Shown here: positions 42,692 to 43,623 of the stretch, in pieces
Layout of the letters: every line of letters begins with the position of its first letter
How positions within the stretch are numbered: the first letter of the stretch is position 1
Source: Sphingomonas quercus
GTDB lineage: Bacteria; Pseudomonadota; Alphaproteobacteria; Sphingomonadales; Sphingomonadaceae
Reading direction: 5' to 3'
Assembly (NCBI RefSeq): GCF_018863195.1
Contig: NZ_JAHKRT010000003.1
Coordinates: forward strand, 372,001-436,000
Length of the DNA stretch: 64,000 nucleotides
Notes under the pieces: model-generated
The model's input: the letters and a program-made list of their open reading frames with translations, nothing else
Told to the model about the DNA's origin: nothing
Database searches by the model: none
Translations under genes and position numbers: made by a program

Positions 42692-43186
42692 ATGCTTCAA
42701 GCGGCACCCGATCCGGCCAACATCGCCCACACCATCCAGCTGGCGGTGGCGCCCTTGTTCATGCTCGCCGGGATCGGCAGCTTCCTCAATGTGCTGGCCG
42801 GCCGGCTGGTCCGCTCGGTCGATCGGGCGCGGGCGATCGAGGAGGTATTCTCCAACCTCGCCGGCGAGGAACGCGGGCGCGCGGTGTGGGAATTGAAGGT
42901 CATCGACCGGCGGATGAAGATGGCCAACTGGTCGGTCATCTGCTGCACGGCGTCGGGGGCGATGCTCGGCCTGACGGTCGCCGCGCTGTTCGTGGCCCAG
43001 GTCGCCGGGGCAGGCTTCGGCACGGTGCTGGCGCTGTGTTTCGTGCTGTCGATGCTGCTGTTCGTAGCCGGGCTGATCCTGTTCCTGTTCGAAGTGCGGC
43101 TCGCCATCCACATGACGGAGATCCGCACCGAGCAGCTGGAGCGCCAGGGCGCGGCGAATCGCTGGCTGCTCGGCCGCCGCCAATGA
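42692..43186 (+). CDS. DUF2721 family membrane protein
   Basis: 164 residues. The N-terminus HTIQLAVAPLFMLAGIGSFLNVLAGRLVRSVDRARAIE is the DUF2721 signature (membrane helix then NVLxxRLxRxVDRxR). Two further membrane helices follow (ICCTASGAMLGLTVAALFVAQV and FGTVLALCFVLSMLLFVAGLILFLFEV). The family is widespread and uncharacterised. The gene is convergent with the micro-ORF on the opposite strand, and the two share the hairpin at 43187-43215. Confidence 0.88.
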   Translation: MLQAAPDPANIAHTIQLAVAPLFMLAGIGSFLNVLAGRLVRSVDRARAIEEVFSNLAGEERGRAVWELKVIDRRMKMANWSVICCTASGAMLGLTVAALFVAQVAGAGFGTVLALCFVLSMLLFVAGLILFLFEVRLAIHMTEIRTEQLERQGAANRWLLGRRQ

Positions 43187-43215
43187 AAAAGGCCGCCGGG
43201 GCTTTCACCCCGGCG
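43187..43215 (-). terminator. Intrinsic terminator for the minus-strand micro-ORF transcript
   Basis: Stem CGCCGGGG (43194-43201) / CCCCGGCG (43208-43215) with a six-base loop, extended by GGC/CC pairing, then T5 on the minus strand (AAAAA at 43186-43190). It may also end the plus-strand DUF2721 transcript. Confidence 0.85.
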
Positions 43216-43272
43216 ACCCTCTTACATGGTCAGCGGCCGGAGGTTCCGGCCCGGAAGAATTAGGGCTGCGGA

Positions 43273-43329
43273 CTAGCGCGCCATCTCCCGAACGGACCGA
43301 ACCGACCTCTCGGCTGAACCATGAGACAT
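43273..43329 (-). CDS. 18-residue micro-ORF with extended Shine-Dalgarno
   Basis: The frame encodes MSHGSAERSVRSVREMAR and a TAG stop. AGGAGG sits 7 bases before the ATG inside a 15-base stretch complementary to the whole 16S rRNA 3' tail. An intrinsic terminator with T5 lies about 60 bases after the stop, and a second GGCCGG/CCGGCC-type stem lies between them, so the unit is a compact independent transcript of roughly 180-250 bases. The peptide is basic and repeats SVRSVRE. Function is unknown: it could be a real peptide, a leader, or the coding part of a dual-function small RNA. The initiation and termination signals are what support it, as 18 codons alone do not. Confidence 0.55.
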   Translation of the reverse strand: MSHGSAERSVRSVREMAR

Positions 43330-43330
43330 C

Positions 43331-43345
43331 GGATCACCTCCTTTC
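43331..43345 (-). promoter_or_regulatory. Exceptionally long Shine-Dalgarno, full anti-SD complement
   Basis: On the minus strand GAAAGGAGGTGATCC precedes the micro-ORF. The plus strand reads GGATCACCTCCTTTC, identical to the usual 3' end of bacterial 16S rRNA, so all 15 bases can pair with the ribosome. Ordinary genes in this window use 4-7 bases. Confidence 0.8.
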
Positions 43346-43473
43346 GCATTGTTAACGACACCACCAATGTGAGTCGCCGGGGCCGATAGAACAAGACTTG
43401 AACTTGATTTTTTTCCCTGTCAGAATCAGCAGCCTTGTGCGTGCGCCGCGGCTCCCGCTTCACCGCGCAGCGT

Positions 43474-43623
43474 TCAATGCCGTTTGAAATATTGCACGTC
43501 GCGCTCATGACGCTGGGCGGCTTCCTTGGTGTCGAAGGTGCCGAGATTGCGGCGCTTACCGGTCTTCTCATCCTTCTTGCGCGAATAGAGGCGATAGTCG
43601 CCGGATTTCAGCTTGCGGATCAT
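43474..43623 (-). CDS. 49-residue conserved basic protein
   Basis: MIRKLKSGDYRLYSRKKDEKTGKRRNLGTFDTKEAAQRHERDVQYFKRH. The layout (basic beta hairpin YRLYSRKKDxKTGKRRNLGTF, then helix TKEAAQRHERDVQYFK) resembles small arm-type or AP2-like DNA-binding domains and is familiar as a short conserved hypothetical protein in proteobacteria. AAAAGGAG lies 8 bases before the ATG. Function unknown; nucleic-acid binding is a guess from charge and fold. It lies 51 bases downstream of the lipoprotein gene. Confidence 0.78.
   Translation of the reverse strand: MIRKLKSGDYRLYSRKKDEKTGKRRNLGTFDTKEAAQRHERDVQYFKRH

Follow-up and report, generated by a model that had tools for sequence, protein, structure and literature searches.

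A small RNA gene with an extended Shine-Dalgarno sequence and an 18-codon ORF in Sphingomonas quercus, a probable branch of the CC2171 family

The window analysed here, 64,000 nucleotides of Sphingomonas quercus DNA (NZ_JAHKRT010000003.1, positions 372,001 to 436,000), carries on its minus strand a compact unit in which an extended Shine-Dalgarno sequence, a micro-ORF and an intrinsic terminator follow one another. We are confident that this unit is a free-standing small RNA gene of about 174 nt that forms the Sphingomonadaceae branch of the Rfam family CC2171, published as rreB/rreR. The RNA is most likely translated and acts through the ribosome, and a functional micropeptide is less likely. 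To the explanation as a whole, in which this identity is combined with a translated RNA that grips the 30S subunit and is gated by a closing helix (P1), we assign a probability of about 0.4.

The features of the unit are collected in Table 1. The first-pass annotation had drawn the unit from 43187 to 43345. The transcription unit probably starts upstream of this, near 43359, a guess from two putative hexamers, and a transcript of 174 nt (43359-43186) was assumed with its start placed by these hexamers.

Table 1. Features of the unit, in window positions.
Feature	Position	Strand	Evidence
Extended Shine-Dalgarno GAAAGGAGGTGATCC, perfectly matching the 16S 3' tail over 15 nt	43331..43345	minus	sequence, pattern search, duplex energies
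Micro-ORF MSHGSAERSVRSVREMAR, 18 codons and TAG	43273..43329	minus	sequence and ORF analyses of relatives
ATG start codon, one base after the Shine-Dalgarno	43327-43329	minus	sequence
P1 5' arm (closing helix; codons 3-10)	43302..43323	minus	predicted fold of 43359-43186; covariation in other clades
Inner imperfect hairpin, with the stop codon and the 3' half of the ORF	43241..43301	minus	predicted fold alone
P1 3' arm, directly before the terminator	43225..43240	minus	predicted fold; covariation in other loci
Intrinsic terminator, GC-rich hairpin and T5	43186..43219 (T5 43186-43190)	minus	sequence, folds, class comparison
-35-like hexamer TTGTTC, 17 nt before the -10-like hexamer	43389..43394	minus	by-eye reading
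-10-like hexamer CACATT	43366..43371	minus	by-eye reading
RF01867 (CC2171 sRNA) match	43190..43353	minus	51 bits (gathering score 75)

The first-pass annotation had described an 18-codon ORF followed by a hairpin and a T5 terminator, and all of these are present on the minus strand. It had further claimed a 15-base perfect match of the leader to the 16S 3' tail and a pairing stronger than that of any other gene. The match is exact and unique: the 15-mer has no second exact copy on either strand of the 64-kb window, and the other three matches carry three mismatches each. Its last 14 bases, AAAGGAGGTGATCC, occur exactly twice in the genome, in the unit and antisense to the 16S 3' end. The duplex of the 15-mer leader with the 16S tail of its own genome reached -29.9 kcal/mol, compared with -17.4 kcal/mol for the best rival start region among 196 mechanically called ORFs of at least 100 aa, which are not all genes, so the claim about pairing strength was borne out as well. 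The best non-overlapping window elsewhere, among 18,275 sampled 22-base windows, gave -24.2 kcal/mol. In the window the match is perfect over 15 nt; in the GTG-start clades in which the Shine-Dalgarno continues into AG, 17 nt are expected. The 15-mer can equally be read as the 16S 3' end in antisense, which raised the question whether the unit belongs to an rRNA gene. This possibility was rejected: the Rfam scan of the window at Rfam's own cut-offs reported only a tRNA, and immediately past the 15-mer the sequence no longer matches 16S. A search of the genome with RF00177 found no match despite a readable 16S 3' end near a contig end (L001) and is hence uninformative.

At a relaxed threshold the unit matched RF01867 with 51 bits (E 7.6e-10), short of the gathering score, over model positions 1-159 of 159, and the alignment contained the shared 5' motif, the closing stem and the terminal hairpin. 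The same model matched 85 of 385 genomes of the class at E 0.001, 13 of which reached the gathering cut-off. At E 0.0001 it matched 51 of 299 genomes of the phylum, all from the unit's own class (the share of the 299 that lies outside the class is not stated), and Caulobacter vibrioides was the sole match among 14 control genomes. Related DNA was found in 55 of 98 genomes; 53 of these were the genome itself or members of the same family, some with weak matches, and the remaining two, from the same order, matched short and weakly. The Shine-Dalgarno and start pattern with up to one mismatch occurred in 93 of the 385 class genomes and the reversed pattern in none. A pattern scan of named contigs gave at least 119 matches, and the 80 listed included Sphingomonas, Novosphingobium, Rhodobacteraceae, Bradyrhizobium, Methylobacterium, Bosea, Brevundimonas, Roseococcus and Azospirillum, together with one SAR92-labelled record whose ORF is apparently unrelated. 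Judged by sequence, the family of the unit is spread widely in the Alphaproteobacteria.

The unit is a single copy in its own genome. One genome of the same family had two RF01867 matches (G109:C1:805104-805255, L054, and G109:C1:2921849-2922077), one of them of the MSHC type. A plasmid collection yielded one 30-base match, in Azospirillum thermophilum (NZ_CP029356.1, 468807-468836), under a gene annotated as hypothetical protein. At four loci (L073, L153, L193 and L210) the same Shine-Dalgarno and ATGTCTCATGG start open ORFs of 56-59 aa with a secretion-signal-like beginning.

For comparison among relatives, loci were grouped by the start of the peptide, not by taxonomy: MSHGS (64 loci), MSHC (53), Rhodobacteraceae-type (12), Bradyrhizobium-type (8) and smaller groups. 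The Sphingomonadaceae set was gathered with TGTC[TC]CATGGTTC, which fixes codons 1-5 by construction; 66 loci were found and three short ones dropped, leaving 63. Loci L065-L213 were gathered by Shine-Dalgarno patterns, and four of them (L077, L091, L164 and L209) were judged unrelated by look. ORFs of at least 40 codons were excluded from the counts of GC3, terminators, helices, arfB, fold probability and internal 16S copies. All counts across loci refer to related sequences, which are not independent.

The ORF and terminator turned out to be conserved in relatives, a check that had been proposed with the unit. The ORF had exactly 18 codons in 59 of the 63 MSHGS-type loci, and a terminator-like hairpin was found in 55 of 64 MSHGS loci compared with 12 of 64 shuffled sequences. 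The stop codon was TAA at 39, TGA at 18 and TAG at 6 of the 63 loci. In-frame stops were absent from frame 0 (0/1071 codons) and occurred at 18/1008 and 12/1008 in the other frames. The GC content by codon position was.56/.57/.76 within the MSHGS ORF and.63/.64/.63 past the stop, and.62/.65/.78 and.65/.66/.64, respectively, in MSHC. A rise of GC3 within the ORF that is flat after the stop was also seen in the MSHR and MSD groups; in Rhodobacteraceae and Bradyrhizobium GC3 was not clearly above both other codon positions. The length was 18 codons in 12/12 Rhodobacteraceae-type and 14 codons in 8/8 Bradyrhizobium-type loci, and it ranged from 14 to 35 codons across the named groups. The fixed length, the three interchangeable stop codons and the GC3 signature support the use of the ORF indirectly. 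Within this set of related sequences, the kept ORF bounds and the GC3 pattern thus speak for translation.

The closing helix P1 is formed, in the predicted fold of 43359-43186, by start-proximal codons and the stretch before the terminator, and it does not overlap the terminator stem. The slightly longer segment 43180-43360 folded to -89.9 kcal/mol (z -5.2, equalled by 0/200 shuffles) with the Shine-Dalgarno paired and P1 missing. The mean P1 probability in the window was 0.59 for 43359-43186 and 0.02 for 43360-43180. When seven different sets of ends were assumed it varied between 0.00 and 0.76, and GGAGG was unpaired with a probability of 0.10 to 0.36. The discrepancy would fit competition between two states as well as folding errors that arise from using a single sequence. 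In relatives the mean P1 probability was 0.40 (57 MSHGS) and 0.72 (43 MSHC), and about 0 in Rhodobacteraceae, Bradyrhizobium, MSD and MSSV.

We then compared the pairing of each locus's own P1 arms with that of arms from other clades. The arms were located by the terminator alone, and the terminator start of the window locus was misplaced in that scan. The own arms paired better in 54 MSHGS loci (-23.3 vs -15.7 kcal/mol), in 43 MSHC loci (-23.4 vs -15.3 kcal/mol) and in 11 Rhodobacteraceae-type loci (-17.0 vs -11.9 kcal/mol), and the effect was weak in the mixed group. In eight Bradyrhizobium-type loci the own arms (-13.7 kcal/mol; other clades' arms -11.9) were no better than shuffled ones (-13.9). 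An unanchored helix scan of 189 sequences gave a weak difference (mean score 15.7 vs 14.2 shuffled) and was replaced by position-anchored tests. When loci were anchored without regard to complementarity, 76 of the 119 outside MSHGS could be positioned (63 distinct sequences) and 43 failed. Across these 63 sequences, 72.1% of the cells paired in the best of seven registers, whereas permutations with the register chosen anew each time gave a mean of 54.2% and a maximum of 60.5%. When the MSHC group was left out and the register kept, the figure was 52.2%, compared with a permuted mean of 39.6% and maximum of 44.6%. Both-sided changes occurred at six of the seven pairs. Since the observed pairing exceeds the permuted maximum, P1 is a supported feature of the family, and the stem co-variation that the first-pass annotation had proposed to look for is present across clades.

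The other proposed check, a synonymous bias at the codon level, came out differently. In 56 distinct MSHGS ORFs, pN/pS in frame 0 was 1.36 for codons 2-18 and 2.07 when only codons 7-18 were counted, which gives no sign of purifying selection on the peptide in the Sphingomonadaceae, with the reservation that RNA constraint may shape these ratios. Frame 2 of the same ORF gave 0.31-0.35, indicating that RNA constraint or base bias contributes to pN/pS besides the missing selection on a peptide. In the window, frame 2 meets a TGA within the Shine-Dalgarno and no start codon was seen after it, so its low ratio probably follows from variability at second codon positions. The strict conservation of the early codons needs no peptide either, because codons 1-5 were fixed by the gathering and codons 3-10 lie in the predicted helix. 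A functional micropeptide, itself the active product and expressed by means of the strong Shine-Dalgarno, would agree with the fixed length and stop in the Sphingomonadaceae and with the GC3 signature of the two largest groups. It would also agree with the motif CTGG[AG], found at +28..+56 in 44 of 65 MSHC, MSHR and MSD loci, 41 of them in one frame that yields a Trp codon (shuffled mean 11.5, maximum 24). Several small sets had pN/pS below 1, for example 0.37 over codons 7-20 of four 20-codon ORFs (9 changes). The MSHC sets ranged from 0.67 to 1.01. Against a functional micropeptide stand the MSHGS ratio over codons 7-18 and the values of 0.90 in the 25-codon MSHC set, 1.33 in Bradyrhizobium and 1.11 in Rhodobacteraceae, where codons 7-18 alone gave 0.88. 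MSHGS residues 7, 11, 13, 15, 16 and 17 accept unlike amino acids, and the length varies between the named groups. With the synonymous bias absent in the Sphingomonadaceae, a selected micropeptide is not supported, and we consider this explanation unlikely.

The surroundings of the unit were also inspected. In the window, uvrB lies upstream and the next gene encodes a convergent DUF2721 protein. The terminator abuts the end of this ORF (42692-43186), and the hairpin may therefore serve both strands. Upstream of the unit, at 43477-43623 on the minus strand, lies a 49-codon lysine-rich ORF with a weak AP2 match below the Pfam cut-off. In a subset of MSHGS loci (L028, L030-L034, L112, L135, L171 and others) a CCCGGTGAAACG-like block about 35-50 bases before the ORF replaces the -10-like hexamer of the others, which, read by eye, perhaps points to another sigma factor. 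The recurring neighbours vary between clades. Nine of the 12 Rhodobacteraceae-type loci (L095, L100, L103, L110, L114, L144, L170, L173 and L211) are followed, in the same orientation, by a gene that resembles the ribosome-rescue gene arfB and carries a GGQ motif. In seven of the nine it starts at +170 to +322, and the one gene checked, at L173, matched Pfam RF-1 (E 8.4e-22). At L150, a by-eye reading suggests the start of such a gene at the edge of the available DNA.

These neighbourhoods bear on other explanations. A role as leader or transcription attenuator of the gene that follows would suit the arfB-like gene of the Rhodobacteraceae; the same motif was found in the flanking DNA of 0/171 other loci scanned, the next gene in the window is convergent, and P1 stays clear of the terminator stem in the fold of the assumed transcript, all of which makes this explanation very unlikely. 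Rather unlikely, in our judgement, is a trans-acting base-pairing sRNA with its target-binding part elsewhere and an ORF that only tunes stability. The unit's own terminator, the clade-specific neighbours and the typing of the family as sRNA in Rfam agree with it, but apart from the Shine-Dalgarno and the P1 arms little sequence is conserved in the Sphingomonadaceae consensus. The Alphaproteobacteria also have small RNAs with C-rich anti-Shine-Dalgarno loops, and the G-rich tail could putatively pair with such loops, so that the RNA would be a sponge for them and not for ribosomes. The match, however, extends through GAUCC, a stretch that agrees with 16S but not with a CCUCC loop, and an exact GGAGG[TC]GATCC occurs in 24 of the best 30 loci by DNA similarity and in 21 of the best 30 by RF01867; a sponge is the least probable of the explanations weighed here.

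The first-pass annotation had proposed three roles: a highly translated micropeptide, a decoy RNA that binds ribosomes, and an sRNA with dual function. The covariation of P1 and the kept ORF bounds favour the ribosome-binding or dual-function roles, while the pN/pS ratios argue against the selected micropeptide. As a tentative mechanism, we propose a P1-gated RNA that holds the 30S subunit and is slowly translated, with translation and not the peptide being kept. The 5' tail bears the extended Shine-Dalgarno and the start codon, and from codon 3 the RNA would be able to close through P1 into one long hairpin with the terminator directly after it. A 30S subunit would grip the tail by 15-17 base pairs, which would easily pay for opening its weak local pairs, since opening the tail costs 5.4 kcal/mol compared with the energy of the 16S duplex given above. 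The bound subunit would then have to melt P1 to thread the start region. As P1, when formed, would obstruct threading from codon 3, initiation should be slow and gated, and the RNA would hold 30S subunits. Each round of translation may open the hairpin and in this way set the lifetime of the RNA or the holding of the ribosome. Transcription, the docking and holding of 30S and any regulatory effect are what we infer from these features. If the RNA does hold 30S subunits, initiation capacity would be acted on by a naturally occurring RNA that is conserved widely. The question shifts from the role of the peptide to the role of its translation.

Copies of the 16S tail inside the ORF were considered as a further element. 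A general internal anti-Shine-Dalgarno was rejected for the window, as MSHGS loci were at the shuffled level: by duplex energy the mean z was -0.26 (64 MSHGS, 0 below -2), by similarity to the 16S tail it was 0.21, and 16S-tail 7-mers occurred in 3/64 ORFs (shuffled mean 3.6). For MSHC the corresponding values were -0.51 (53 loci, 8 below -2), 0.70 and 14/53 (shuffled mean 3.9, maximum 12). The duplex z was lower in the smaller groups, and in the eight Bradyrhizobium loci the values were -2.0, 2.29 and 8/8 (shuffled mean 0.5). A piece of the 16S tail (CTGGATC or TCACCTC) lies within the ORF at about +36 to +47 in MSHC and about +18 in the Bradyrhizobium type, above shuffles. Such an internal copy could compete for the Shine-Dalgarno in these two types. 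An improbable extension of the P1-gated mechanism is a class-wide ribosome gauge: the RNA would report or buffer free 30S subunits, the tail binding 16S, the hairpin setting a threshold and translation of an unimportant peptide resetting the switch. Under it, the internal 16S-tail copy of Caulobacter-like and Bradyrhizobium ORFs would compete for the same strand, and such a copy was not found in the Sphingomonadaceae.

The unit resembles CC2171 in its extended Shine-Dalgarno with the following TGTCTCAT, in a predicted closing stem that would join the start of the ORF to the segment ahead of the terminator, and in the terminal hairpin. It differs in starting with ATG, whereas the family consensus starts with GTG. 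Rfam types the family as an sRNA gene and its description, as shown, has no ORF, whereas the window unit carries one of 18 codons. In rreB of Bradyrhizobium and rreR of Rhodobacter an extended Shine-Dalgarno reportedly precedes a micro-ORF on a short, free-standing RNA, an anatomy that the unit is predicted to have; the peptides differ from that of the window unit after MS, and their 16S match is reportedly 17 nt compared with 15 nt here. The lengths of the Bradyrhizobium-type 14-codon and Rhodobacteraceae-type 18-codon loci fit rreB and rreR, which we take them to be. The 2017 study of rreB reportedly searched for matches of at least 16 nt to the 16S 3' end before an sORF, a length that the 15 nt of the window fall short of, and the orders listed in its abstract are said not to include the Sphingomonadales. 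The rreB RNA reportedly co-sediments with 30S and becomes more stable when its start codon is removed, and its reported weak translation is ascribed to the long Shine-Dalgarno. This reported behaviour would fit gated initiation.

The rreB study (Hahn et al., RNA Biol 2017, 14:1353-1363) is cited in PMC7298713. A Mesorhizobium CC2171 match, MH_s33, appears with apparent sequencing coordinates in a table of PMC5596092, and the Rfam 15 paper (PMC11701678) gives one additional covarying base pair for RF01867. According to PMC4117421, two Caulobacter RNAs that had earlier been predicted as ncRNAs are translated. According to PMC7298713 and PMC10117765, rnTrpL/peTrpL of Sinorhizobium is likewise a small RNA that also encodes a peptide (14 aa). 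It is leaderless and derived from a tryptophan attenuator, whereas the window unit has an extended Shine-Dalgarno and a convergent next gene. Our literature search found no text joining CC2171 to rreB/rreR or describing a member from the Sphingomonadales, which is weak evidence as most subscription papers lay outside the search. The unit thus links an Rfam family typed as non-coding, a published micro-gene pair and an unannotated sphingomonad unit. Its kind is already known from CC2171 and from rreB/rreR; new are the lack of any sign of peptide selection, the rise of GC3 that ends at the stop, the cross-clade covariation of P1 and the Sphingomonadaceae branch itself.
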